DNA of 20,167 nucleotides from positions 1 to 20,167 of IMG/VR virus record IMGVR_UViG_3300007960_000275; one strand, 5' to 3'. Position numbers and translations under genes: made by a program. The notes under the pieces were generated by a model. The model did not search any database. It saw only the letters and a program-made list of their open reading frames with translations, and had not been told where the DNA came from. Positions within the stretch are counted from its first letter, which is position 1; every line of letters begins with the position of its first letter. This DNA is from a virus. This document shows, one piece after another, positions 1 to 19,696 of the stretch.

Positions 1-3000
1 AGATCTCCCTGCTCATACCATGCAAATTTAAATTTAGAAGTGTCTAACCAAATTTGCCCAACATTTGTCTGTGTCCATGTGTTATAATCTGCAGGATCAT
101 AAGGTGTTTTGTAAGAAATGTTCTGTTCAACTCGACCAAATAGTTTACCTTTGGCTGGGTCTATGTGTTCCAATCTGCTGATCAAAGATGATGTTTTCCT
201 ATTGATGATCTGAACTGTTTTTGTTTGCTCCGTGTCAATTAAATTTGGCTGGGTTTGTAGCAATTCCCATCCGCTGGCATCTGTAGATTTTTTCTTAAAC
301 CAATACACCTGGCCTGCACCTAAATAGGTAGAATCACCCGAACCTGTAACACTTTGTCCTGGTGCTCCCACAAAAATTGACCTGTTGTATGAGGCCATGG
401 CATTGCCAAACTTGTCATTGGTTGATAGATCGCCGGGTTGTATCTCAGATTCAAACACAAATTTTGTATCTAATTTAGAAAATACGAAAGCTGCCCCTGT
501 GCTGTACACAGTGCTAACAAAAGATGTTGCTTTGCCGTCGAAGGTTGTTTCAGCAGTGACTGTCGAACCATCTGAAAGAAATTTATCAAATGTTGTTTTT
601 TGTTTTGGACCAAAATTCTGCGAATGGATCATCAATCTCTTGCCGTCTATGGCAACATGTTGTCCAAACTTGCTGTTTGCTCTATAAGATGGTTGATTGA
701 TTGTTTGATGTAACTTGTATTGTGATATTACAATCCTATCTCCTTGTGAAGGAGCAGTGTTAAAAGTTATCACATTGCCGGATACTGTGTAATTGTATAA
801 AGTATTTCCATTGATAGTGACTGCGATAGAATCAGAATCCAAAGCAAAAGTGGAAGTGAATGCAGATGTAGATCCGTCTCCTGTGTGAGACGAAGAATTT
901 AATTTATAAAAATAAACTGCTCCCTGAGGATTATCACCAACTATGGTGTTGGGAGATCCTATCACTAAATCCTTGTCTGTTGAACTGATGTCTAATGAAT
1001 ATCCAAAATTTGCACCTTGATTGTTAGGACTTGCTATCTCTTGCACTTGATAATAATTAGAGTCATCGTTTAATCTGAACACATACACAGAACCAGAATC
1101 TGTCGCACTGTCACCAAACGATGACGAATCAAGATCATAATACGGTGAGCTCACTGTTAGTGTCGAAGCATCACCAGTCACAGCAATTGAAAATCCAAAC
1201 TTATCAATCGATTGAGATGATGTTCCCGGTGTCAGTGTCTGACTGTAAATGTATTGACCATTTGTTTTTTTGAACACATAAACTTTTCCTGGATGCATGC
1301 CTGAATCAGATGATAATGTAGTGCTGGATGGTGCTCCAACATACAGATAAGTTCCATCAGTGGAGCATGCAGTGGACCATCCAAAGTACTCATCGCTATC
1401 TAATGTCGGCGATGCAACTGATTGTGAAATTCCAAAACTGCCAAACTGATCTTTGGTCATTACATGCACCAATCCTTGATTGGTTTCTGTGGTTGTGCCT
1501 ACCACTGATGTGATAGAAACCACACTTGAAGAGTCTTCTAACCAAATATTTTCAGTTGTAAAGACTCCACTTATGACTTTCACATACAGCACATTATTTG
1601 TGGTGTCGCTGATTAAAATTCTTCCTGTGGCTTCGCTGTCTGTGCCATATATCAATTGACCAGGTGCAAACTGTGTGTATGCAGATGAAAGATTCAATCT
1701 CATTATATCTTTGGAATACGGTGATCCAGAGAAAATAGTGTTGCCATCGCCAACTATTGCCACGCTGGTTCCATTTTTATCCGATGAGTCAGAGTTTAGA
1801 TATGTGTACACTATCTCATTTTTTAACCTAAAGGTATCAGTATCAGAATTCCTTGTGTAAACCACTGTTGCATTTTCGTTGGGAGAACCAATTGCCAACA
1901 CAGTTCCGTTGTCTGAATTTATTTTTACTGCTGTTCCAAAATTTGTGTTCTCAGCAGTTGAAATTAAACTTCTATACTTTTGTTGTGTCTTAAAAACAGA
2001 GTCATTGTTAATTTGATAAATTTTCCATAATCCAGAGTTTGTAGTGTATCCGTTGTCAACAAAAACAGTATCTCCTGTTTGAAATCCATTTATCGGAGTA
2101 ACATTAAGAATATCATCAACTGTCGATAATCTTACAGAAGTCAACTTCATAATTGTGCCGTTTTGTTTGGTACTATCAAAAGATTGGTTGAAAGGCACAC
2201 TAAATTTGTACAATCCATCTGTGCTGTCGGGAGAATCTGTCACTTTGTATATTCCGTCAATGGCATTGTTGAAATTTTTCACCACTATGTAATCACCCGC
2301 CACAAGTCCATGTGGATTGTAGGTTGTGAATTGTAATATGCCATCTCTGGCTTCGTATAGATCGATATAATTGTCTATGGTAGTTGCTCTGTACACTTGC
2401 CAGTCAAAGGTAAATGTGTTAGCCAACCAAATTCTGTCACCTTCGAACATGTTGGCGACATCAAGTGATAATAATTCTTGCTCGTCAAATGCATTAAATT
2501 TTACCAACTGTGGTTGCACATAACCAGCCATTGGATACTTGAATAGGTAGTTTGGAGTATTCAATGTGTCATAGGCAAAATTAGAAAACACTGGAAGGTT
2601 CAATTCGTATGGTCTATCTTGCAACTCAGATGCAGAAACATTAATAATATTTTGAGTGTCATCTTCTACAGCTTGTGTTATCTTGTATATTTGTTGTTGC
2701 TGTCTATGTTTGTTGTCATCTAAGGCAAATAGGTAATTTTTATCTGTTCTATAGGAACCATATTCACCAATTCTAAATGCATTTTCCTCAAAAACTTTAT
2801 ATTCCACTGCATCCTGAACAGTTGTCGGTGATTTGAATCTTTGAATAGGTTTTGTGGTGCCTTTGTCTTTGATCATTCCTTGATAGAATTTGTATTGGGT
2901 AAGTTCATCCAATCCCAAGTTTTCCCAATATGGTCTGCTTTGGAAACCAATCAAATGCTGTGCATATTTTTGCTGTTCTGCATCAAAGTTTTCTGTATCA

Positions 3001-6000
3001 AGTGAATAAAAATCTCTGAATGATTCTGCTTTGGCATCCCAGTTTGGCAATAGATCTTTTTGGGGTTGATTTGTTTTGAGTCTATAATTTGCATTGTTGA
3101 AATTTTCTCCCGAATTATGATTTCTCAGTGCCACATATGTGTTACCTTGATGGGTAACGACATCGCCTTTTTTGTAATCCTTGTACGCTGTCCAAGAATA
3201 AATTTTAGCAGTGTCTATGATGTAACCTGGAGAGTAAATATCACCGTTCCAATTTGCTGTCTTCCATCCAACTAATTTGACACGGTCCTGTCTTACTCCC
3301 ATCAAGTCATCATAGATAACATCCTGAAATGATGTTTTGTTGTCTAAAATCAACACATGTTCTTTTTGAATTGCTCTGATATCAGCATTATAAATTCCGT
3401 CTTGATCAGGGTTGGTTTCGATAATAAACTGACCATTGGTCCTGTTGGTCGAAAGACTGGTTGGTTGGATAGGAAATCCGTCCTGTTGCAACACGGTATA
3501 AAAATTATCTCCTCCTATCAAATCGTCTCCAGTAGAATTTTCTTTTTCAAACTTTAACTTTGCCGAAGCAGGCGATAATGTTATTACAGCAGAATTTTCC
3601 CAATCCTGTGTGCTCCAAAATAAAAATTCTTTGACCGAAAGATCCCAATTGATAGGAACATTCAATTCTGTAGAAAATTCATCAAAAATAAATCCTTTGG
3701 ATTCTAAGTAACGATTGTATCCATACAAGAAATTGGCAACCTCTTGGGTTGATCTTAGTTCAGTTCCATAGGTTATTTTAGATACATTTTGTAGATAATC
3801 TTTGTACTTGTTGACTCTTACTCCTCCTTTGAGAGGAAGGCTTGCACCAATCTTGCTCCAATTGTTTTCATCAAAAGTTTGCACACTGGCAATATTTTTT
3901 TGGGCTCTGTAAAAGAATCCCGCATTTTTGACTATAGAACCAGATGCATAAAATCCATTTGGCTTCCAGTCAACATATGACTCTGTGGTAGCTCCGACTA
4001 CAATTACATCACTGTTGTTGTTGATCCTTGGAGCATGATAAGAAAACGATCTATCAAAATTATTATATCCACTGATCTTGTAACCGTTGGTTGATTTTTC
4101 AACAATCACACCAGAATAATTCACAGTGTCTATTGGCGAGCTTTTGAACAAATACAAATTGAAATTCTCTTTGGGAATGTAAACGCTTTTATTAGTTGAT
4201 GAAGGACTGTAACTGCCAACTATCACATTCATGTTGTCTTTGTTGCTGAATCCTCCCAATTTGTAAGCCAACTGCACATTTAAGTTGGACAGTCTATTGG
4301 CGATGTATTCTATACCGTAACCCAATCCTTTGACATAGTCATAGATCAAATTGATGTAACCAGATGTCAGGGTTGATCCAGTTGGTAGAGCATAATTTGT
4401 TATGGTATCTCTGTACTTGCCGTCATAGACATATTGACCAATTGCGTTTTTATTAATTCTGGATGTGTCAAAATATATGCCGGCGTACTGTCCCGGTCTG
4501 GCTAAGAATTTTGCAATCTGCAGGGCAAATCTAAACGATGACGATTTCCTCCATGCAGTTTCAGGAGGTCCCCAATCACCAAACACCCATGAAGATGATT
4601 GCAACTGTTCGGAACTGGTGCCTCCTTTGATTATGCCTGCATTTGCTGGATCCAACAATCTGCCCGCATCGTCAACAGGAATATTATTCAACACCCCATT
4701 ACGAGCATATCTTCTGTAGTAACCTTTGCGTGGACCTTGTGGAATGTAACCCTGCGACACGTGGTTCCACAATAAGGTATTACCACCGGTGTATGGTGCT
4801 GGTCCATATTCGCTGTCCCACCAGTCGGGTTTTTGAGAAAACTCAAACATTTCCCAAGGTGCTGTGTGTGGCCTATCTGTGTCAAACCATAAATGGTATA
4901 TCCTTCTCCAGAAACCTATCAATTGTGAGTCGTCGAATTTGGCTTTATAACCTGTCCATTTGTAGGTCCACGGATTGCCGGAATCGTAGGTCGAATTAGT
5001 AGAATAGTCTATGGCGTTCACACCCGACCAAGTGTAGAATTCCCTCGCTATCAAAGAATCATACTGATCTGTGCTATAATCATTGAGTCTGTAAAACCCA
5101 GGTTCTAAATTTATTATATCGTCCTTGTACTCTGCCTTGATGTTGTTGAAGATCCTTTTTTCAAATTCCAACAATATGTCATCTCTAAAATCATTGTATG
5201 CCACAGTGATGGCACCATCATGACCTTCTATGACGTATATGCCTTGAGTGGTGGAATCTTCGGATTGATAAGTGTCATCTAAGAATTTTCTTGGAGCGTA
5301 TTTAGGAGCTAATCCCAATTTAGCGGGAGTCGACGGAATGTATGATCCTTGCGTTGACACATATTCGTCTATGAGTATGACATCATTTACTGCCAAAGAT
5401 TTTAAAATTTTTATTCCTATCAGTGCTGTAGAATCTTCTAAGTTTGTGAAAATGTAATCAATGCCATGCAATAATTGGACATTGTTTAGATAAACGTACA
5501 CCGACTTCTCAGATAATTGGATTAAATCAAAAGAATCTGTGATAGGATATGAAGTTATGTTGATGTCAGCAACTTTGTAAGATAAGGTGTTCTTGTTTGT
5601 GCCATACGCCAGCATGTCTGATCCAAAATAAGGCATCGAACTGTTTTTGTTTGAATTGATATGTCCCAACAAGATATCTAACTGTTCTGCAATCGTTCCG
5701 TTGAGATTAGAAGTGTCGCACAGAGTGATGATAGATTTTTTTACTTTTTCATAATCGTTAGAAGCAGTTCTCAGTGCGGAAGGTAAATCAATCACCGGAT
5801 CTCTCACCAACACCGAAGCCAATGGCAAGTTAGAAGAATGCTGTAAAAATTTTGTGGTGTAAGCAAACACATTATCTAAATCTCTACTGTTGTTAATTCC
5901 GGCAGGACTTCCAGAAAAGGATGGATGATTTTGGACTCCTGTTTTATAGTGAGCAGATATATCTCCGTGTGTGAAGGAAATAATATTTTTGTTCAATGGA

Positions 6001-8225
6001 TTGCTGACTGCTGTCACAGGCACTTCCCAGAAGCCGTCGTTTGTTGGAAAATCTCTGTCAGAATATGATTTTATGGTTACCTGTGCTCCTTCTTCCTGTC
6101 GTTTGTTCAATCTAATGATTAAATTCTTGTTTGTCAGTTTCCTTGTGTAGTCACTGGTAAGTTCTCCGTTTATAAAAACTTGTAGTGTCACGTCTGTGAG
6201 CAGTGCTGAATTCCTCCAAGCTTTTATTTCAAAATCTGTTTGATTTTTCTTTGCTGTGTACTCTTCGATTCTCTGCTGTGGATGTTGGATTATGTTTTTT
6301 TTCCAGTTGTTGATCAACGAATAACCTGTGCGTTGGTTGACTTTTAAAAAATATTGCCTTAAATTGAAAGTTTCTAATCCTCCCGAACTAATATTTTGGA
6401 ATGTGCCATTATTGTATGTGTCATTCAACTGAATGTCGGACAACAATCCAAACCTTTGGTATATCACATTGGTTCCGTAAACTGTGTCGGGCGTTCCTTG
6501 GGTGGCATCAGTGGCCACTTCGAAAATAGTGGACCCTTTGAAAGTGGTAGAAAGAAACAAATCATTGTTGGCCAAACTGTTTGCATCACTGTCAAACAAA
6601 TCAAACAGTGGCTTTTGTTGCAGTTTTGTTTTGGCTTGACTGGCCACCCATGATCCGTTGTGATAATGATAAGTTTTTCCTTTTTGTGTTGCTCCCTTTT
6701 TCACAAATATGCTCTGGCCTTCTTGCACAGTGGTCGAGTCGTCATCAAAAGAAATCCTTAGACTGCTGTCCCCAAGGGTCACGAACCGTACAGTGAAAAT
6801 TTTATTTTTTTGTTCAGCGTCGTTGGTGAACACAATGGTCGAGCCTTCGGTCACTGTGGTCTTATCTATGCTCAATCCCAATGATCCCTGCAGGGTACTG
6901 AATGCATCAGTCGTCTTTGTGTCAACAAAATCAACTCCCCTGCCGGTAGTACCATGATTGTATAATTGCAGGCCCGGAACAAATTCAATGATAGGTCTTT
7001 TGGCTCTCTGAGACTCTAACAATTCTGTCTGCAAATTGTTTTTCAAATTTGCTGTTTCGATCACAGATCTATGGAACCATCTGTTTCCTCTGGACCATGC
7101 ATTTAAATCTTGAGATGCACGATTGATGGTCCAATAGTCAGGAAATTCTATTATGCCAATTGTTTCTCCCCAGCCTTTGGAATCCCAACCAGTTGTTCCA
7201 TTGTAATCCCATGGCTCGACTTCGCTGATTCCATACAATTCATACACTAATAGATTTTTTTGGTCGACTAACATGATGCTTCTGCCAACATTCTCTACGT
7301 AGAATGTTTGCGGCCTGTCAGCAACTGGATCTCCTTGGAAAACAATTTTTTGTCCAGAAGAATATGTCAATCCAAGACTGTCAGTGAACTCGTTTACACC
7401 AACAAGATTTTCATTTATGTCGAAACTTTCGTTGGCGAGATCTTTGATGATAAATCTGCCTTGCATGCCTTGATGGAATTCGCATTGATAGTACAACACA
7501 GTTTCTGGTATTGTGGACGAATCCGATGTGGGGATGTGTAAAGTCACAGTGCCAGAAGTGGCTCCATTATTTGTCACATAGTCTGTGTTTGCTGTGCTGT
7601 CGCGACCAGTTCCATAGTCTGTTTTTATCCAGAAATTCATGCCTGGCGCATCTATCACAAAATTATATGTGTTGCCCCTGTAAATTGTGATATCAGGATT
7701 GGTGGTTGTTTTGTTGTTGAATTTCCATCCAGACAGGCCTTCATTAGTAACATTGATTGTTATGATGCTTCCGGGATTGTCGATGTTGGACTGCACAGAA
7801 AGGGGACCATTTGGTATCCAAAAGTACTCTCTAAAGTTCACCAATTTGTCTGGGTCAACCGGTGGTGCGTATGAATAAAAATCGCTCTGCCATAATTTGT
7901 CATGTCTGAACTTGTCTCCTCCACGGGCGCCAACTTCATTCACAACATCAATGTATGGTGCAATAAAATCCACATTAGAGCCATCCGACTTATATGTGGT
8001 TGCGGGCTCCAGTTGATAGTTTTGTCTATCTGCACTCTGCTCTTCCAAGTAGACATCATTCTTCCTGAAAGAACTCTGATATTTTTGTCCCACAAAAGCA
8101 TTGATCTTATCCAAAGTGGATGGTTCGATGTATTGATCAAGGGTAGAAGATAAGAATTTTTTATTTTTTTCAGTTTGAAAAACTTGTGGCAGTAACTTGT
8201 GTGAAGGTCGAGTCGATTTGGCCAT
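1..8225 (-). CDS. Giant modular virion structural protein in the gp7 position, partial (C-terminus beyond the left edge)
   Basis: One frame stays open from ATG at 8225-8223 to base 1, giving at least 2,741 residues with no stop in the window. The start is fixed by a TAATG junction with the gp6 stop. It directly follows gp6, where T4 carries gp7 (1,032 residues), so a baseplate or tail-periphery role is likely, but I see no clear gp7 sequence match. Modules in order: an N-terminal region (1-160) with LLPQVFQTEKNKKFLSS; a cupredoxin-like module (about 165-262); a TYHYHNGSW segment near 519; a Trp-rich block with FDTDRPHTAPWEM at 1114-1124; two short carbohydrate-binding-like modules (1420-1456 and 1678-1714); seven FG-GAP-like repeats (about 2085-2660); and a tail with GKLFGR and GQIWLDT. 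The Trp-rich and C-terminal blocks recall large cyanophage structural proteins (from memory, not checked). It is probably a fibre-like or receptor-contacting baseplate component. Coding is certain; the exact role is not. Confidence 0.9.
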   Translation of the reverse strand, partial: MAKSTRPSHKLLPQVFQTEKNKKFLSSTLDQYIEPSTLDKINAFVGQKYQSSFRKNDVYLEEQSADRQNYQLEPATTYKSDGSNVDFIAPYIDVVNEVGARGGDKFRHDKLWQSDFYSYAPPVDPDKLVNFREYFWIPNGPLSVQSNIDNPGSIITINVTNEGLSGWKFNNKTTTNPDITIYRGNTYNFVIDAPGMNFWIKTDYGTGRDSTANTDYVTNNGATSGTVTLHIPTSDSSTIPETVLYYQCEFHQGMQGRFIIKDLANESFDINENLVGVNEFTDSLGLTYSSGQKIVFQGDPVADRPQTFYVENVGRSIMLVDQKNLLVYELYGISEVEPWDYNGTTGWDSKGWGETIGIIEFPDYWTINRASQDLNAWSRGNRWFHRSVIETANLKNNLQTELLESQRAKRPIIEFVPGLQLYNHGTTGRGVDFVDTKTTDAFSTLQGSLGLSIDKTTVTEGSTIVFTNDAEQKNKIFTVRFVTLGDSSLRISFDDDSTTVQEGQSIFVKKGATQKGKTYHYHNGSWVASQAKTKLQQKPLFDLFDSDANSLANNDLFLSTTFKGSTIFEVATDATQGTPDTVYGTNVIYQRFGLLSDIQLNDTYNNGTFQNISSGGLETFNLRQYFLKVNQRTGYSLINNWKKNIIQHPQQRIEEYTAKKNQTDFEIKAWRNSALLTDVTLQVFINGELTSDYTRKLTNKNLIIRLNKRQEEGAQVTIKSYSDRDFPTNDGFWEVPVTAVSNPLNKNIISFTHGDISAHYKTGVQNHPSFSGSPAGINNSRDLDNVFAYTTKFLQHSSNLPLASVLVRDPVIDLPSALRTASNDYEKVKKSIITLCDTSNLNGTIAEQLDILLGHINSNKNSSMPYFGSDMLAYGTNKNTLSYKVADINITSYPITDSFDLIQLSEKSVYVYLNNVQLLHGIDYIFTNLEDSTALIGIKILKSLAVNDVILIDEYVSTQGSYIPSTPAKLGLAPKYAPRKFLDDTYQSEDSTTQGIYVIEGHDGAITVAYNDFRDDILLEFEKRIFNNIKAEYKDDIINLEPGFYRLNDYSTDQYDSLIAREFYTWSGVNAIDYSTNSTYDSGNPWTYKWTGYKAKFDDSQLIGFWRRIYHLWFDTDRPHTAPWEMFEFSQKPDWWDSEYGPAPYTGGNTLLWNHVSQGYIPQGPRKGYYRRYARNGVLNNIPVDDAGRLLDPANAGIIKGGTSSEQLQSSSWVFGDWGPPETAWRKSSSFRFALQIAKFLARPGQYAGIYFDTSRINKNAIGQYVYDGKYRDTITNYALPTGSTLTSGYINLIYDYVKGLGYGIEYIANRLSNLNVQLAYKLGGFSNKDNMNVIVGSYSPSSTNKSVYIPKENFNLYLFKSSPIDTVNYSGVIVEKSTNGYKISGYNNFDRSFSYHAPRINNNSDVIVVGATTESYVDWKPNGFYASGSIVKNAGFFYRAQKNIASVQTFDENNWSKIGASLPLKGGVRVNKYKDYLQNVSKITYGTELRSTQEVANFLYGYNRYLESKGFIFDEFSTELNVPINWDLSVKEFLFWSTQDWENSAVITLSPASAKLKFEKENSTGDDLIGGDNFYTVLQQDGFPIQPTSLSTNRTNGQFIIETNPDQDGIYNADIRAIQKEHVLILDNKTSFQDVIYDDLMGVRQDRVKLVGWKTANWNGDIYSPGYIIDTAKIYSWTAYKDYKKGDVVTHQGNTYVALRNHNSGENFNNANYRLKTNQPQKDLLPNWDAKAESFRDFYSLDTENFDAEQQKYAQHLIGFQSRPYWENLGLDELTQYKFYQGMIKDKGTTKPIQRFKSPTTVQDAVEYKVFEENAFRIGEYGSYRTDKNYLFALDDNKHRQQQQIYKITQAVEDDTQNIINVSASELQDRPYELNLPVFSNFAYDTLNTPNYLFKYPMAGYVQPQLVKFNAFDEQELLSLDVANMFEGDRIWLANTFTFDWQVYRATTIDNYIDLYEARDGILQFTTYNPHGLVAGDYIVVKNFNNAIDGIYKVTDSPDSTDGLYKFSVPFNQSFDSTKQNGTIMKLTSVRLSTVDDILNVTPINGFQTGDTVFVDNGYTTNSGLWKIYQINNDSVFKTQQKYRSLISTAENTNFGTAVKINSDNGTVLAIGSPNENATVVYTRNSDTDTFRLKNEIVYTYLNSDSSDKNGTSVAIVGDGNTIFSGSPYSKDIMRLNLSSAYTQFAPGQLIYGTDSEATGRILISDTTNNVLYVKVISGVFTTENIWLEDSSSVVSITSVVGTTTETNQGLVHVMTKDQFGSFGISQSVASPTLDSDEYFGWSTACSTDGTYLYVGAPSSTTLSSDSGMHPGKVYVFKKTNGQYIYSQTLTPGTSSQSIDKFGFSIAVTGDASTLTVSSPYYDLDSSSFGDSATDSGSVYVFRLNDDSNYYQVQEIASPNNQGANFGYSLDISSTDKDLVIGSPNTIVGDNPQGAVYFYKLNSSSHTGDGSTSAFTSTFALDSDSIAVTINGNTLYNYTVSGNVITFNTAPSQGDRIVISQYKLHQTINQPSYRANSKFGQHVAIDGKRLMIHSQNFGPKQKTTFDKFLSDGSTVTAETTFDGKATSFVSTVYSTGAAFVFSKLDTKFVFESEIQPGDLSTNDKFGNAMASYNRSIFVGAPGQSVTGSGDSTYLGAGQVYWFKKKSTDASGWELLQTQPNLIDTEQTKTVQIINRKTSSLISRLEHIDPAKGKLFGRVEQNISYKTPYDPADYNTWTQTNVGQIWLDTSKFKFAWYEQGD
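380..1970 (-). repeat. Seven FG-GAP-like repeats (predicted seven-bladed beta-propeller) with two inserted modules
   Basis: Seven protein-level repeats of the form (D/N)-x-FG-x-(S/A)-(V/I/M)-A...DG..L.(V/I)G(A/S)P begin at FG or equivalent codons at 1940, 1775 (NG instead of FG), 1385, 1199, 1007, 668 and 410. These are residues 2096, 2151, 2281, 2343, 2407, 2520 and 2606. Most repeats are followed by a (V/A)(Y/F)(V/W)F-type strand. The period is 55-64 residues where undisturbed. Longer gaps hold extra modules: FAPGQLIYGTDSEATGR after repeat 2, and a GDGSTSAF...INGNTL...FNTAPSQGD segment, typical of phage fibre decorations, after repeat 5. FG-GAP repeats form beta-propellers in integrin alpha chains and bacterial surface proteins. 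A ligand- or receptor-binding role is inferred. Confidence 0.75.
7440..7733 (-). other. Cupredoxin-like module inside the giant structural protein
   Basis: Residues about 165-262 of the giant protein read as a cupredoxin-type beta-sandwich. They open with beta-strand-like segments (ITINV, WKFNN, YNFVIDAPG) and end in LYYQCEFHQGMQG. The C-terminal motif places Cys248, His251 and Met254 as C-x2-H-x2-M, the ligand-loop spacing of amicyanin-type blue copper proteins. In related phage and marine bacterial domains, as I remember them, the first ligand lies in an APGHPFWIKT-like motif. Here that segment is APGMNFWIKT, so His is replaced by Met196. Three of four canonical type-1 copper ligands are therefore present. 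The fold is well supported by pattern; copper binding is uncertain. Confidence 0.65.
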
Positions 8226-11200
8226 TAGTAGTAACCCCCAGAACTGCTAGAACTACTAGAAGTTGCTGTGGATGTTACTGTCGCTGTATTATTAGTCGAT
8301 GCTGTGTCACTGGAAACTACAACTGTGCCTGTGGCTTTAATTTTTTCAGCTGTAATCGATGTGATCATTTCAACATTATCCACAGTAGCCGATGATATTA
8401 AAATTTCATTTTCAGAAGAATTTATTTGGAACAATGATCCGAATCCGCTGGATGCTTGAGCCGGTACTATCACAACACTCAAAACATCAGGAGTCAGAGA
8501 GTTGTGCAAAAATGCCGCTAACTCTGAAAAGTAAAATGTATCTCCGAAATCCCATAACCCCAAACTGAAGTAAGTGTTGATGGATTCTACCACTGACGAC
8601 TTCAGTTGATTATCGCTCACGTTGGTAGCAGGATTCTTGACAATCTTGAACGTGGCTTGCAATTCTGGTTCAGCACCTGGACCAAACACCAATTTGTAAT
8701 TTCCTGGGTTAAAAATTATTTCATCAGACACGCTTTTGAGTTGATTGAGGCTTGGACCATAAGTTTCGTTCAGTGTTGCTATGGTCGGTGGAACAGGCTT
8801 GGCTGTTGATTGATTCTTTTTTAACCAAGTTCTGAACTCTTGATCGTAAGTTTTTGTCATCACATACACGTCTATCATGTTAGAAACAGCAGGATCTATC
8901 CTTCTTGATCTTGGAGCACCATGATTGTATCTATAATACAATGAATCTCTTCCAATATAAGATGTGTAACCTGTTAATGCAACTAATAAACCAGAAGTGC
9001 TATTGTAAGATTTGAATGTGTTGGTAGAGTAAAAATAAAATTTTTGTCCGTTCGCATACACAGACAGATCGGAGATGTCTCCTTCCACTCGAGACACCAC
9101 AAATTCACTGTTCAACACAGGATCTTGTTCTTCAAAGCCATTTCTCGTTACAGTTTGGAAAAACACATATTTAAAAGTAGGCGATGTTAGTTCACCAACC
9201 ACCGTGTCGAACAAATCAGGATCATCAACCACACCATCATCATCAGAATCAAAGAATCCAACTTTCATTTTTCTTGTGTCATAGTATCCATCAACACCTT
9301 GGAAATTTTTGACAATCTGCCAATCATAATTTCTTTGTAACAAAGAAGTTAAATCAGGTCCGGTGTTAGTAGATAACAATTGAATTTTATCTTTGATGGT
9401 CTTACCTGTGGTAGGATCGTAAATTTTTACAGATTCATCAAAATAAAACTTATTCCGTGATTTAGATTGGAACACATAATCAGTCGAACGATAATAAACT
9501 GTGTAGGAAACTCCATTGGTCGTGAATCTAATCATCCAAGACGCATCTGCCTGGGTATTTGTTGTGGAGCCTTGGTTAGATAGACTGAACGTCCCTGTGT
9601 TAAGATTGTCTTCATCTATCACTGACCAAGTTGCTGTCAAATAGTTGTATGATAATCCAAAATTCCTATAATTTTTAACATTATCAATGATGGATGTAGA
9701 CAGAGTGGTGGTGACCGATGTAACAAATTTTGGGATTATTTCAGATAATTCACTGGTCGAAGGCAAATTGTCATTTAATTGTATAGGCCCTGTGCCATCA
9801 CCTAAATTTCCCTGGCCCACATTTGATCCATCGCCTTCTACAGAAACAATTTTGCTCCACCAATTTTCTTTGGAGTTGGGATGATCTGCTGTTCCCAACA
9901 TAAGTGTACCATTGTTCATGAAATGGTAACCCGATGGTGGTGTGAACTTGACCAAGGCATCTTTAGTGATGTATTTTAAATTTGAACTGCTTTGTGCACC
10001 TACTGACACAGGAGTTGACCCTTCAAGGAAATAACCTGTGCAAGAATTAGTTGATATGGTTGATCTATTCCATGTTTTGTTGGGAGATGTCAGTGATGGA
10101 TAATTTTTATAATAAAAGTGTCTAAACGACGCAGACTTCATCACATCAGTGAGAGTGGTGTTTATCATCTGCTGGATGTCATTGTTGTTGCTGAATTGGA
10201 AATCAAAAGTTTGATTTCTTTCATCTCTGTATAAAATTCCATCATCCGCAAAAATATCTGTCTGCGAATAAACCCCGGTGGGGTCTATGACATCTAAAAA
10301 TCTTGACACACCGGAACTGGTTCTCACTTGTGATTTGGCCCTTGCTATAGAAGGGTTCTCTGTCAACGGAACAATTTGATAATCTTCGGGAGTGATCATT
10401 CTATTGTTGGTGTAGTATGACTGAGGTGCTAAAGTTTTGATCTCTTGTATGCTCTGTGATCTTGATGCATTGGTCACTGTGTTCTGTAACGATGCATTGA
10501 TGGTCAATGTGTTGGTTTGCCCTGATCTTGAAACGTAATCCACATCGATGCTGATGTTGGACATGGAAGTTTTTTGTATAGAATATGTAAGATTGTTGCT
10601 GGCTCTGAACACGCATCTAAAGTTTCCCTTAGGCAGATTACCATACACGCCGTCTGAGAATACAAGACTGACCTGATCGTTGGGTCTTGTAATCACTGCG
10701 TATTGATTGTTGATGTTCTGAGATAGTGAATTGTAAATCACATTGTTGCCGGTTATTGCAGGAACCTTGGTCCATCTGTTTTCTATGATGCCATTTTCAT
10801 CCAATCCAAACAACCAAACGTCTGAATTGTTGATGTTGGCTTGATCAATTGCTACCACTGTGTTAGGTGAAGCATTAGTAACTGTGAAATCTTGGAATCC
10901 AACCGAACCTTGTTTGAAGTGCAGGAAGTAACCTGTGTTGGCAGAGCCAAATCCCTGTGAATCATTTTTGTACACGAAAGAAAGACCGTTGCCAGGAATA
11001 GGCGATTCTTCATAGATAAATTTTTCGTTTAGGAAACTGCAAGGCACAACTTCAAAAGGCATGTTGACACCTCCAATGTTTCGATTGAATCCATACAGTG
11101 GTTCTGAGATATTAGCAGAGTTAAATCTGTACATCTCTGTGGGGATTCCTAATATGGTTTCGCTGGCTTGAGGCTTGCCTATGAATTGCTCCCTGCTGAG

Positions 11201-11689
11201 AGCCGCATTCATTACTGAATTGAACTGTTCCTGCCAATTAGCGTTTGTTATATCATTCCATAAAATTGGAGTGCTGGCGAGATTCTGTCCATTGGCATCA
11301 AACACAGATTCTGTTGTGATGACGGAATCTATTTTTAAAAAACCTGAAGCATTTATATTTCTTTTTGGTTGATATGAAATAAGTCTTGCTAAACGTAGCA
11401 CAGATTCCTTACGTTCTGCAAGATCGATGAAATTTTCTCTGGCATTAAGGTCAACTCTGTATGAAATCGACTGGCCAACATAGGCTATCAAATCGATAAG
11501 AGCTACAAACTCGGAAGAGTCGATGTAATCATTGAATGATTCTGGATAGTTGATCTGTAGATAGTCTATTAGAGTGCGTCTGATGGTGTCAAAATCGTAT
11601 GATTTGAAATCAGTTTCACTGAAAGTTCTGTATATCTTCTGCCAAGCAGTGGAAGATAATAAAGTGTTTTGTCTTGTGTCTACAGCCAT
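8225..11689 (-). CDS. 6: Baseplate wedge protein gp6, enlarged
   Basis: The 1,154-residue product begins MAVDTRQNTLLSSTAWQKIY. Its N-terminal 200 residues (DFDTIRRTLIDYLQINYPE, FVALIDLIAYVGQSISYRVD, NFIDLAERKESVLRLARLI) are the recognisable gp6 core of T4-like phages, related to the baseplate J family. Gp6 forms the ring of wedge dimers that joins the baseplate wedges around the hub. T4 gp6 has 660 residues, so this one carries several hundred extra, mostly between about 400 and 1000. One insertion holds an EF-hand-like loop, D814-x-D-x-D-G-x-x-D822-x-x-D825. The C-terminus is a low-complexity Thr/Ser tail ending SSSSSSSGGYY. The gene follows gp25 by 46 bases and overlaps the next start as TAATG. 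A late-like box sits six bases before the ATG. No clear Shine-Dalgarno site is visible. Confidence 0.93.
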   Translation of the reverse strand: MAVDTRQNTLLSSTAWQKIYRTFSETDFKSYDFDTIRRTLIDYLQINYPESFNDYIDSSEFVALIDLIAYVGQSISYRVDLNARENFIDLAERKESVLRLARLISYQPKRNINASGFLKIDSVITTESVFDANGQNLASTPILWNDITNANWQEQFNSVMNAALSREQFIGKPQASETILGIPTEMYRFNSANISEPLYGFNRNIGGVNMPFEVVPCSFLNEKFIYEESPIPGNGLSFVYKNDSQGFGSANTGYFLHFKQGSVGFQDFTVTNASPNTVVAIDQANINNSDVWLFGLDENGIIENRWTKVPAITGNNVIYNSLSQNINNQYAVITRPNDQVSLVFSDGVYGNLPKGNFRCVFRASNNLTYSIQKTSMSNISIDVDYVSRSGQTNTLTINASLQNTVTNASRSQSIQEIKTLAPQSYYTNNRMITPEDYQIVPLTENPSIARAKSQVRTSSGVSRFLDVIDPTGVYSQTDIFADDGILYRDERNQTFDFQFSNNNDIQQMINTTLTDVMKSASFRHFYYKNYPSLTSPNKTWNRSTISTNSCTGYFLEGSTPVSVGAQSSSNLKYITKDALVKFTPPSGYHFMNNGTLMLGTADHPNSKENWWSKIVSVEGDGSNVGQGNLGDGTGPIQLNDNLPSTSELSEIIPKFVTSVTTTLSTSIIDNVKNYRNFGLSYNYLTATWSVIDEDNLNTGTFSLSNQGSTTNTQADASWMIRFTTNGVSYTVYYRSTDYVFQSKSRNKFYFDESVKIYDPTTGKTIKDKIQLLSTNTGPDLTSLLQRNYDWQIVKNFQGVDGYYDTRKMKVGFFDSDDDGVVDDPDLFDTVVGELTSPTFKYVFFQTVTRNGFEEQDPVLNSEFVVSRVEGDISDLSVYANGQKFYFYSTNTFKSYNSTSGLLVALTGYTSYIGRDSLYYRYNHGAPRSRRIDPAVSNMIDVYVMTKTYDQEFRTWLKKNQSTAKPVPPTIATLNETYGPSLNQLKSVSDEIIFNPGNYKLVFGPGAEPELQATFKIVKNPATNVSDNQLKSSVVESINTYFSLGLWDFGDTFYFSELAAFLHNSLTPDVLSVVIVPAQASSGFGSLFQINSSENEILISSATVDNVEMITSITAEKIKATGTVVVSSDTASTNNTATVTSTATSSSSSSSGGYY

Positions 11690-11735: not shown

Positions 11736-12188
11736 TCAAGCAGGGTATAATTGAGAAGATTGCGTCATCAATCCTTGGTTTTGATCAAACAACAGGTTCA
11801 TCTGTTCAGCCACACCGTAGGCTACATACACCACTCCAATGGTAACTTGTATGCCATGCTCGTAGTCATCTATCTGCAGGCTGTCTAATATCACACGTGG
11901 ATCATAATTTATCACGTTCTGCACATCCTGTACGATGGCTTCTCTGGTCTGGTCGTCCAATGGATCGAAAATGTACTGCCATATGTTGGTGCCGAACTCC
12001 GGATTTTCCAACTTCTCGCCCTTGCGGATGTTGAAATGATTGAAAAGATCCTGTTTTACTAACTCAAAATCATACAGTTTGGTGTCTTTGAAGTTGTTGC
12101 CCTGTGTGGAGAAACCCTTGAACAGCTGTGTCCTTGCGGAAGTGTTCTTCTGCACTGTTGATTTGGATTTGTAAGTTACTGTGGACAT
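11736..12188 (-). CDS. 25: Baseplate wedge protein gp25 (gpW/gp25 family)
   Basis: The product has 150 residues, close to T4 gp25 (132). The family signature lies at residues 52-77: FNIRKGEKLENPEFGTNIW followed by YIFDP, and then EAIVQDVQNVINYDPRV. Gp25 is a small wedge component that contacts gp6 and the sheath end and is related to T6SS TssE. The N-terminal 30 residues are polar and Lys/Thr-rich. Its ATG lies 8 bases after the TAA of the PAAR gene, in an A/T-only spacer with no Shine-Dalgarno site. It ends TGA, 46 bases before gp6. The position between spike tip and gp6 matches T4-like baseplate clusters in marine phages. Confidence 0.93.
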   Translation of the reverse strand: MSTVTYKSKSTVQKNTSARTQLFKGFSTQGNNFKDTKLYDFELVKQDLFNHFNIRKGEKLENPEFGTNIWQYIFDPLDDQTREAIVQDVQNVINYDPRVILDSLQIDDYEHGIQVTIGVVYVAYGVAEQMNLLFDQNQGLMTQSSQLYPA

Positions 12189-12196
12189 ATTATTAT

Positions 12197-12496
12197 TTAA
12201 CCTGCATAAACTGTGGCCGCACTGCCTGTAATAGATCCGGCATCACAACCATCGCCTTTTCTTGCACACAACACACCTTCCACATACACAGAACTGCTGG
12301 ATCCTGTGATGGCAGCCACGTGTGCCACACAATCTTCACCAGAGGGCACCAAGTGACTCACAGTCAGATCTCCTAATCTGCACCATAACAATCCTTCTGC
12401 ATACACTGTGCTTTGTCCAGGAGTGGCCAATGTGGTTGTGCCATCACAGCCATGTCCTGTAGCAACTGCGTCGGTCTGTCTGGCAGCCAATGCCAT
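12197..12496 (-). CDS. 5.4: PAAR-domain spike tip protein (gp5.4-like)
   Basis: The 99-residue protein is Gly-, Ala- and Cys-rich with the repeating PAAR pattern: TGHGCDG (14-19), STVYAEGLLWCRLGD (29-43), SSVYVEGVLCARKGDGC (68-84) and GSAATVYAG at the end. PAAR proteins form a pointed cone on the gp5 or VgrG needle and bind a metal near the tip. Candidate ligands are His15, His48, Cys56 or His59, and Cys84. T4 gp5.4 has 97 residues. The ATG overlaps the gp5 stop as TAATG (12494-12498), so the tip is probably made by translational coupling with its spike partner. The domain call is strong; the precise ligands are a guess from spacing. Confidence 0.93.
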   Translation of the reverse strand: MALAARQTDAVATGHGCDGTTTLATPGQSTVYAEGLLWCRLGDLTVSHLVPSGEDCVAHVAAITGSSSSVYVEGVLCARKGDGCDAGSITGSAATVYAG

Positions 12497-14022
12497 TATG
12501 CTATTCCCCTTTGGTCTGTTCTTTCTACGTCAGTTAATTCAGGAGTTGTTTTGTCTTGCCTTTTGTTTTCATGCTCAGCATATGGTTCCTGTGTGGGCAC
12601 TCTCTTCATTATAGAATAAGTGCTGTTTACTCCGGCATTGGAATAAGTGTTCAACTCAGACAACACACTTGATGCAACTTTGCCAGATGTGTTCATGTGT
12701 ATTTCATTCCCAGTGTTTGCCAGGAAGTCATTGTTGCTCCATAGTTTTACATCATTGCCGGCTTTGATCAATCCGTCCGATCCTATGTATAATTCTGTGT
12801 TGGTGTTTGATTCAATTCTTACTCTGCCGGTGGTGATCGAGTCCAAAGAATTGACCAAGTTGCTGGAATTGTTTTGTCCTGTCGCCTTGATGTTGACATT
12901 CCTGCCTGCTTCAAGGTTAAGATCTCTTTCCGCCCTAAGATTGAAATCGTTTTCTGTGTGAATGGATACAGAATCTTTGGCATATATGTCGATCTTACCG
13001 TCTTTGGTGAATTCAATCCAAGCAGTGCCTTCGGTGTTTGTGATGTAGACCAAACCTTCTGTGTTGTGCAATAAAAGTTGAGCACCACTCCTTGTTCTCA
13101 ATCTTATGAGTTCATTCGTTATAGGTTGTGTGATCGTTTTGTTAACTTTCTTAGCGGGAGTTCCGTCATCCATCACAAACTGATGTCCTCCAAGGCGTGA
13201 GTGGGCCACCTTACCTATGGTGTTGCCAGGATTGGGTCCGCCGCCACTAAAAATTTTTCCATGTCTGTTGATGGACTCCCTGGGTGGTGTTTGCTGTCCT
13301 TCGAAGTCTATGGGCCCCGGTGTCGATATGCCAAACACCTGCGATGGCGTTTCGCGTCGTGCAGAAGATGATGTGCCTCCACGCACATTATCATTGTGCA
13401 AACCTTGACTGATCAATGTATCGGCCATGTAAGGATTTACGGGCCTTACTTTGTACACCTCATCTCTGTCAGGATCTTTGTTGCCCCTGCTTACAAGGTC
13501 AGTCTCTGCTCTTTTTTGAGCTTCAGCCACCGGTGCAGACTCCATGCCAAACTCAACGTAGTACCTGTCGTTTTCGTATGATGTCCCCACGTATTTGTTG
13601 GGTTGGCTGTTTGCCACTCCAGGAGTCATATGATTCATGTACTCTTCGAACACACATCCCATCCAATATCCCCTATTGATGTCACCGTTGGCGAACATCA
13701 CTAAAACTTTGGTGTCTATGTCGGGCGGAACCATCCAGAATCCATAAGATTTTTGGGTGTTGCCGTACTCTCGATTGCCTTCTGTGGTTTCGCTCAGTGG
13801 TGTTTGACCAGCGAACGGAGAACAGTATGAAACCAATATGGTTGCCGCGCCCAACGTCTTGGAAACTTCATCGTAGGTGCCGTGCAGTTCAGGTATGTGC
13901 ACCGCCAGACGCCCCATCCTGTTGACGTCTGTGGCACTCTTGACGTATGCCACATATGGGCCTGGAAATGTTTTGATCTTATTGCTGAGATCTATTACAG
14001 ATGATCTTTTATTGACTGGCAT
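12496..14022 (-). CDS. 5: gp5-like baseplate spike (OB-fold plus beta-helix, no lysozyme domain seen)
   Basis: The product has 508 residues. Residues about 18-150 form an OB-fold-like N-terminal domain (GPYVAYVKSATDVNRMGRL, YGFWMVPPDIDTKVLVMFANG, RGYWMGCVFEEYMNHM). About 300-470 is the triple-stranded beta-helix of gp5/VgrG needles, with short repeats such as GKIDIYAKDSVSIHTE, FNLRAERDLNLEAG and NVNIKATG. T4 gp5 (575 residues) has a lysozyme domain between these parts. Here the linker (150-300) is Pro/Gly/Arg-rich (TPSQVFGISTPGPIDFEG, GGGPNPGN) and shows no T4-lysozyme catalytic pattern. The gene starts at a TAATG overlap with the hub gene and ends in a TAATG overlap with the PAAR tip, giving hub-spike-tip order. 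Confidence 0.9.
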   Translation of the reverse strand: MPVNKRSSVIDLSNKIKTFPGPYVAYVKSATDVNRMGRLAVHIPELHGTYDEVSKTLGAATILVSYCSPFAGQTPLSETTEGNREYGNTQKSYGFWMVPPDIDTKVLVMFANGDINRGYWMGCVFEEYMNHMTPGVANSQPNKYVGTSYENDRYYVEFGMESAPVAEAQKRAETDLVSRGNKDPDRDEVYKVRPVNPYMADTLISQGLHNDNVRGGTSSSARRETPSQVFGISTPGPIDFEGQQTPPRESINRHGKIFSGGGPNPGNTIGKVAHSRLGGHQFVMDDGTPAKKVNKTITQPITNELIRLRTRSGAQLLLHNTEGLVYITNTEGTAWIEFTKDGKIDIYAKDSVSIHTENDFNLRAERDLNLEAGRNVNIKATGQNNSSNLVNSLDSITTGRVRIESNTNTELYIGSDGLIKAGNDVKLWSNNDFLANTGNEIHMNTSGKVASSVLSELNTYSNAGVNSTYSIMKRVPTQEPYAEHENKRQDKTTPELTDVERTDQRGIA

Positions 14023-17939: not shown

Positions 17940-18719
17940 ATGGCCACAAAATATCTAAACAACAGGGATATGCTCAAGCAGATACACCTGAGCAAAGCCA
18001 CCTACAGTGCGTATCTATCAGAAGAGTACAGAGATTACGACATCATTGTGCCTTCCGTAGAAAAAATCAACATCCGTTCTGTTGCACAGGGCAAGAGAGA
18101 ACGGGCAAAGCGACTGGAACGAGAAACCGGTGAAAAACATGACGCCAAAAAGATAGAAAAATCCGACATAGTGTTTCGTGTGATGACATTCGATCATGTT
18201 CCAAATTCTAAGAGAAAAACCAATCCAAAAAACATTTCAGAATCAAAAGCCAAAGTAAACTTTCCCCCCTATCAGCATTGGAAATATGACGAGAAAGACA
18301 AGCTGATGTGTGTGGCGAAATCTCATTGGAAGGGTGGGCTGTCAAACGGGCATTTTTCTGCGGATCACGGCAAGATGACCAACACACTGGCCAAGATGTT
18401 TATACTGTTGACTCAAAGATACGGAACCAGAGGCAACTGGCGTGGCTACACCTACAACGACGAAATGCAAGGTCAGGCACTCATGCAGTTGTCACAGATA
18501 GGTTTGCAGTTCGACGAATCCAAGTCCGACAATCCTTTTGCTTACTACACAGCTGCCATCACCAATTCATTCACAAGAATACTAAATGTTGAAAAGAAAA
18601 ATCAATCACTAAGAGATGACATCTTGCAAGAAAACGGCATGATGCCATCACACACCAGACAGATCGAATGGGAGATTCAACAAAAGGCCGAAAAAGATCT
18701 GATCGATCGCGACAAATAG
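17940..18719 (+). CDS. 55: Late-transcription RNA polymerase sigma factor gp55
   Basis: The product has 259 residues. The conserved gp55 core lies at about 130-235: LAKMFILLTQRYG, GNWRGYTYNDEMQGQALMQL, FDESKSDNPFAYYTAAITN, SFTRILNVEKKNQSLRDDIL and PSHTRQIEWE. This corresponds to sigma region 2 of the T4 protein, which binds host core polymerase and directs it to late promoters. T4 gp55 is 185 residues; here a basic N-terminal extension of about 120 residues is added, with SKATYSAYLSEEYRDYDII near 18-36 and a Lys/Arg-rich stretch at 70-105. T4 gp55 ends in a hydrophobic sliding-clamp-binding tail; this protein ends KAEKDLIDRDK with no such tail. It is divergent from the baseplate operon and has its own sigma70-type promoter. 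The next gene starts two bases after its stop. Confidence 0.9.
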   Translation: MATKYLNNRDMLKQIHLSKATYSAYLSEEYRDYDIIVPSVEKINIRSVAQGKRERAKRLERETGEKHDAKKIEKSDIVFRVMTFDHVPNSKRKTNPKNISESKAKVNFPPYQHWKYDEKDKLMCVAKSHWKGGLSNGHFSADHGKMTNTLAKMFILLTQRYGTRGNWRGYTYNDEMQGQALMQLSQIGLQFDESKSDNPFAYYTAAITNSFTRILNVEKKNQSLRDDILQENGMMPSHTRQIEWEIQQKAEKDLIDRDK

Positions 18720-18721
18720 AC

Positions 18722-19696
18722 ATGCTGTCAAACTTCAGCACAGACATGGGTCTGCATTGGACTCCTGGAGCGGGTGGAAATTTTTTAGCCAGTTTATTGT
18801 ATCCTAAACTTTTTACTTCACAAGCATCCAACGAATTCAAAGCCTTTTCACACACAAAAAATTACATTGCATCATTAGGTACAACACAGATAGAGTTTGA
18901 TTCCATCGACGAGCTAATAGATCAAAATGAAAACATGCACTATCCTATTTTTGGATTCCATAAGTTGCCAGTAAAATTTATAGAAAGCGGACAGTTGGAT
19001 CCTTTTATTAAAACAAAAACATTTTTGTCAATAGATTGCACACCCAATGATGTAAGATTTTGCACTACTTTAAACTTTGCTAAAAAATATACATATTCTG
19101 CATTTAAAGATTTACACTATGCATTTGATGTGATTAGGACATTATCTCAGAACTGCAACTGGCATCCTAACAACATCGAAAACTTGTATGATTATTTTCA
19201 AAAAACTTTTGTGGAATGTTTCCAAACAGAAAAAGATATCATGCATGATTTCTTTGAAAAGTTTGCACCTTCTTACACTGTTGCAGGCAACCAAGATCAC
19301 GACGAGTTTCATGTATCTGTGACAACAGGATGTCTGATGTTCCTATCTAAGTGTTTGTCTGAAAAAACACATCCAACCCCTCCTGCATTTAGAACATTTA
19401 TCATGAACGAGATAGCTAATCAGGATGACATGCTTGACCTACGATCAGATAATATACAATTAGATGATTCTAAAACTTCATTGGAAATAATTAGGATACC
19501 ATACCAAGATTTTTTCTTTAAATCCCAGTTTCCAGAATCAATACAAAAGTTTATACCAAAAATAGATTCCAAAAAAATTAAAAAATACAGCATGAATAAC
19601 ATTTCTTTAGTTGAAAGTTTTACCCAAAATTTACAAATCACCAGAGACTACAAAATTTACATCGAGACAGCCAAAGAAATGATTTCGGGAATATAA
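18722..19696 (+). CDS. Unrecognised protein with a PGAGGNFL loop; weakly sulfotransferase-like
   Basis: I chose ATG at 18722 (324 residues), two bases after the gp55 stop. An upstream in-frame ATG at 18668 would overlap gp55 by 52 bases and add a Lys/Arg-rich head that looks like out-of-frame gp55 sequence. ATG at 18746 is also possible, because the conserved-looking part begins there (GLHWTPGAGGNFLASLLYP). The Gly-rich loop after a short strand recalls a nucleotide- or PAPS-binding loop. Near the C-terminus, IIRIPYQDFFF followed by ESIQKFI resembles the Y-x-D-L-F segment of sulfotransferases. No membrane segment is visible. Many phages carry an unnamed gene between gp55 and gp47. The function is unknown; the sulfotransferase idea is a weak guess. 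Confidence 0.72.
   Translation: MLSNFSTDMGLHWTPGAGGNFLASLLYPKLFTSQASNEFKAFSHTKNYIASLGTTQIEFDSIDELIDQNENMHYPIFGFHKLPVKFIESGQLDPFIKTKTFLSIDCTPNDVRFCTTLNFAKKYTYSAFKDLHYAFDVIRTLSQNCNWHPNNIENLYDYFQKTFVECFQTEKDIMHDFFEKFAPSYTVAGNQDHDEFHVSVTTGCLMFLSKCLSEKTHPTPPAFRTFIMNEIANQDDMLDLRSDNIQLDDSKTSLEIIRIPYQDFFFKSQFPESIQKFIPKIDSKKIKKYSMNNISLVESFTQNLQITRDYKIYIETAKEMISGI

Follow-up and report, generated by a model that had tools for sequence, protein, structure and literature searches.

The virus record IMGVR_UViG_3300007960_000275 of IMG/VR, whose 20,167 bases make up the window analyzed here, encodes beside its baseplate genes a giant protein in which an earlier note had recognized a cupredoxin-like domain with three of the four copper ligands. 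This locus raises the question of what such a domain is, where it comes from, and whether it could still hold copper. The minus strand of the window carries a T4-like baseplate cluster made up of gp53-like, gp5-like, PAAR, gp25, gp6, and giant protein genes (Table 1), the gp53-like gene encoding a wedge protein. The plus strand carries a gp55-like late sigma factor gene and the first part of a gp47/SbcD-like nuclease gene. A 342-aa open frame on this strand, overlapping the late sigma factor gene at its end, matched no PHROG or Pfam family.

Table 1. Coordinates of the features discussed, as positions of the window
Feature	Position	Strand	Remarks
Giant gp6-adjacent virion structural protein	3..8225	-	2741 aa in window, open at window end
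FG-GAP repeats in giant protein	1077-1211	-	best at residues 2339-2383
CBM5/12 carbohydrate-binding module in giant protein	3096-3194	-	residues 1678-1710
Cupredoxin-fold domain (predicted)	7434..7787	-	residues ~147-264
Met254	7464..7466	-	axial-ligand position just ahead of last strand
His251	7473..7475	-	second His, in C-x2-H-x2-M loop
Cys248	7482..7484	-	end of penultimate strand; candidate copper thiolate ligand
Met196 (ATG)	7638..7640	-	loop that in most relatives bears the first His ligand (G-H-P-F-[YW]-I-K-T)
gp6-like baseplate wedge protein	8225..11689	-	directly upstream of giant protein
gp25-like baseplate wedge protein	11736..12188	-	
PAAR tip protein	12197-12496	-	
gp5-like hub/spike protein	12496-14022	-	
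342-aa open frame	18668-19696	+	overlaps end of late sigma factor gene

The giant protein matched the profile of PHROG 10938 over its whole length (E 2.6e-261), and its homologues lie directly after gp6 in jumbo phages with several different hosts (PBECO4, PA5oct, Atu_ph07, Phosso, and XacN1). This match and its place after gp25-gp6 make it a member of PHROG 10938, a family of giant virion proteins that follow gp6 in jumbo and T4-like phages, and the gp25-gp6-giant protein synteny bears out the baseplate linkage proposed in the earlier note. The PA5oct homologue, whose record carries the note ESI-MS/MS, is part of the virion, going by that annotation. Like the T4 gp7 gene, the giant gene stands directly after gp6, and a profile comparison of T4 gp7 with the first 300 residues of the giant protein gave no match. 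In a relative 87% identical to it over the N-terminus, the open frame runs to 4268 aa. The orthologue in L004 contains an in-frame TAA about 61 codons in (L004:10160-10240), beyond which homology continues; this stop could be a sequence error or mark a broken gene.

The segment initially delimited, positions 7440-7733, is residues 165-262 of the open frame 3-8225 on the minus strand; its coordinates are right for that strand, but the plus strand holds a stop there. Translation confirmed APGMNFWIKT with Met196, and YYQCEFHQGM with Cys248, His251, and Met254, and the domain limits proved somewhat broader than those first given (Table 1). The structure prediction and fold search that the earlier note had asked for both returned a cupredoxin. 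An AlphaFold2 model of residues 145-266, built with 96 aligned sequences (and numbered so that model residue n corresponds to protein residue n+144), had a mean pLDDT of 89.2 and a pTM of 0.83 and formed a Greek-key beta-sandwich like that of solved cupredoxins. Met196 lies in the loop between model strands 42-48 and 54-57, Cys248 right after strand 99-103, and Met254 right ahead of strand 111-117. In this model, Met196 and C248-x2-H251-x2-M254 occupy the four canonical cupredoxin ligand positions. Foldseek retrieved 196 PDB chains at E<=0.001, and among the best 50 of these 196 all 50 were cupredoxin proteins, including rusticyanin, two-domain laccases, and other multicopper oxidases. VIA-align superposed the domain model on rusticyanin with a Z of 10.3 (rmsd 2.2, 95 residues) and gave a Z of ∼10 for two-domain laccases and for the N-terminal part of a three-domain copper nitrite reductase. 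A 420-residue context model (residues 1-420) contained the same cupredoxin region, at 151-267, with the same structural matches.

C-x2-H-x2-M is the spacing of amicyanin, and it is present here at residues 248, 251, and 254. The full type-1 set of His, Cys, and His, with Met as axial ligand, is incomplete because Met196 replaces the first His, so that three of the four ligands are present, as had been claimed. In the family profile, Tyr-x-Cys aligned, with weak significance, to Tyr-His-Cys of copper nitrite reductase. A Pfam search with the window domain alone matched no copper-family model, and when this domain or its nearest relatives were used as queries against Pfam and PDB sequences, copper-family matches were at best weak. 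Among 96 relatives, Copper-bind matched 12 (best E 2.7e-4) and Cupredoxin_1 matched 5 (best E 6.7e-3), both weakly; PF25489 (At5g54830-like domain) matched 50 (best E 4e-8) but not the window's own domain. The cupredoxin assignment comes from the fold and the wider family. No further cupredoxin copies were found in the window or its two nearest kin, all of them fragment records.

Alignment with jumbo phage homologues placed the domain between conserved flanks, YFWIPNGP before it and SSGQKIVF...VENVGRSIMLV after it. PA5oct and SCTP-2 lack the cupredoxin domain, their flanks being joined by a short linker; the segment in its place in Phosso and Atu_ph07 is different and shorter. On this comparison of sequences, the domain is an extra module close to the giant protein's N-terminus, found in a marine lineage. 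In a distant orthologue (L010:10001-11023) all four ligands are missing, and an extra CBM5/12-like segment (YSKGQYVVYNSKLWKAL...) sits within one of the loops of the cupredoxin domain.

We then surveyed the ligand positions across relatives. Searches of viral contigs yielded 107 relatives of the domain and 583 relatives of the N-terminus, the best 80 of which were kept; the census set held 132 distinct full-length domains, mostly from viral contigs and biased toward the window's relatives. His-Cys-His-Met occupied the ligand columns in 93 of these 132 domains. The first-ligand position was His in 94, Phe in 21, and Met, Tyr, or Leu in 5 each, so that position 196 is usually His in homologues. 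Among the giant-protein orthologues sampled, 72 were complete, 8 lacked only the first His, and 29 lacked more, and cupredoxin domains in other phage proteins were complete in 20 of 21 cases. Eight of nine isolates checked had complete ligands (P-SSM2, Bellamy, P-SCSP2, P-GSP1, MA01, S-H9-1, ACG-2014j, and actinophage DSL-LC01), the ninth being S-B43. The tail fibre gene of P-SSM2 (L016 7569-10724), with its complete-ligand domain, stands three genes upstream of piuC.

A phage tail-fibre homologue of the domain, used as the query against bacterial genomes, retrieved 22 loci at 48-65% identity (Acidobacteria, PS1, OCS116, Neomarinimicrobiota, Muricauda, and others). All readable bacterial domains had complete ligands except one with Gln for Met, and several of the proteins start like signal peptides or lipoproteins. 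The PS1, OCS116, and related alphaproteobacterial loci (L187-L205) encode ∼430-aa proteins with two tandem cupredoxin domains, both with complete ligands, the first being longer and divergent (NHPLSIS...YYYCLFHGGM). Given its wide spread, the complete site probably represents the family's ancestral state.

Ligand changes were mapped on a tree of the flanking sequences alone, with the domain left out. Six changes between complete and incomplete sites were required, and five in a smaller tree. The clade of the window comprises seven members, and a single loss in it has moderate support (SH-aLRT 85). None of them has the first His, position 196 being M, M, Y, F, F, F, and L; C-H-M is kept in six, and the seventh reads L-C-Y-L. 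In other clades without the first His, position 196 is again F, L, M, or Y, the Cys has changed mostly to A or S, and the His mostly to Q, D, or N. Independent-pair tests of joint ligand loss had too few pairs for significance, and nearly all pairs went in the same direction. Since hydrophobic residues fill the site, these replacements suggest that the metal was lost rather than that a new ligand was gained.

The domain as a whole is tightly constrained. Compared with L002, dN of the domain was 0.08 and dN of the two flanks 0.085 and 0.12, with synonymous sites saturated; compared with L004, dN/dS of the domain was ∼0.07. The domain is under strong purifying selection, like its flanks, and thus the window domain is not a decaying relic; the suggestion of a structural relic, taken as decay, is not supported.

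We consider it probable, from the computed fold, family, ligand census, losses on the tree, and purifying selection, that this is an ancestrally copper-type cupredoxin module that lost its first His here and kept its sandwich as a structural or contact module. The family is widespread among marine phages, on their tail and baseplate proteins, and among marine bacteria, on proteins that they secrete. It usually has the full type-1 set, H...C-x2-H-x2-M, and in the window lineage hydrophobic residues, Met in our case, have replaced the first His. A normal blue-copper site should be unable to form without this His, so that the window domain has probably lost normal copper binding. Selection keeps the beta-sandwich, most likely for a structural or contact role on the baseplate exterior, a surface role proposed from gene position and domain types. 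The CBM5/12 module and the FG-GAP repeats of the giant protein fit a surface role, without proving it.

Copper in the four-ligand relatives would be plausible. More tentatively, and with rather less confidence than in the loss just described, the baseplate and tail-fibre proteins of marine phage virions might broadly bear true type-1 copper centres, which could act as a redox or copper-dependent host-contact switch or exploit host copper traffic; the window lineage would then be part-way through loss.

Might the site instead work in an altered form? Met196, Cys248, His251, and Met254 could form a site for Cu(I) or a different soft metal, much as Met/His-rich copper chaperones of cupredoxin-like fold do. 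All four count as soft or borderline ligands and lie in the right loops, Met is able to ligate Cu(I), and M-C-H-M, plausible for a soft metal, is common to the window and L002 (87-89% identity) and arose separately in L088. The closest sister lineages nevertheless have F, Y, or L at position 196, one of them reading L-C-Y-L, and C, H, and M are retained in the window's clade no better than background, since 65 of the 113 columns of the domain are equally conserved. We therefore regard such a Cu(I) site as possible and less likely than loss of the site, and in itself improbable. As for the earlier proposal that the domain binds copper in altered form or another metal, the M-C-H-M residues are in place, but the case for a special Met-for-His site is weakened by sisters with F, Y, L, or K at position 196.

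The domain could also be a functionless remnant in decay, given that ligands were lost repeatedly and, in some lineages, wholly; this we judge very unlikely, as the domain is still recognizable in ligand-poor clades and purifying selection as strong as on the flanks largely refutes it. Least credible of all is an unrelated beta-sandwich, Ig-like or carbohydrate-binding, with C-x2-H-x2-M by chance, for although such folds are common in tail proteins and the window domain alone lacks a Pfam copper-family match, this reading is largely refuted by the motif odds (one occurrence against ∼0.0002 expected from the 3 Cys, 33 His, and 18 Met among the 2741 residues of the giant protein), by top structural matches that are all cupredoxins (best 50 of 196 listed), and by the full ligand set in homologous columns of most relatives.

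The module that lost its first His can be set beside known systems. Amicyanin, plastocyanin, and rusticyanin resemble the window domain in predicted fold and ligand-loop topology, and amicyanin also in C-x2-H-x2-M spacing; blue copper cupredoxins are small electron carriers with the first His, whereas the window domain is a module of a giant virion protein with Met. Tail fibres and connectors of cyanophages (P-SSM2 PSSM2_028, Bellamy gp29, the S-H34/MA01 connector, P-SCSP2, and P-GSP1) contain a homologous domain at 31-43% identity, but in other tail proteins, and those checked read H-C-H-M (F-A-V-M in S-B43). The C-terminal part of PHROG 677 (positions ∼302-410) also matches the cupredoxin domain (window residues 172-262), and a match to this family may give a protein the name "baseplate wedge tail fiber connector" on account of that domain alone. 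The secreted bacterial proteins (Acidobacteria, PS1, OCS116, Muricauda, and Neomarinimicrobiota) belong to the same domain family, with complete ligands in nearly all of them, but they are cellular and not virion parts, several being signal-peptide-like, short, or with tandem domains.

A copper-type fold on a virion had been called unusual. The domain turned out to be common on marine phage tail proteins, and it is visible in predicted viral structures, but no cupredoxin or copper-binding domain in phage virions is described in the literature searched, which left out most subscription papers. Cupredoxins themselves are well known; that the tails of many marine phages carry complete type-1-copper-like domains was not found in that literature. 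The Ferrojan horse papers have proposed iron on phage tail fibres. If the four-ligand relatives bind copper, the tail proteins of common marine phages would be metalloproteins of a class undescribed for virions in the literature searched, which would matter for copper in seawater and for the idea, proposed for iron, of phages exploiting the metal uptake of their hosts. Because the site was lost repeatedly within one protein lineage, natural knock-outs exist, and comparing window-type with four-ligand domains would tell whether the copper or only the sandwich matters.
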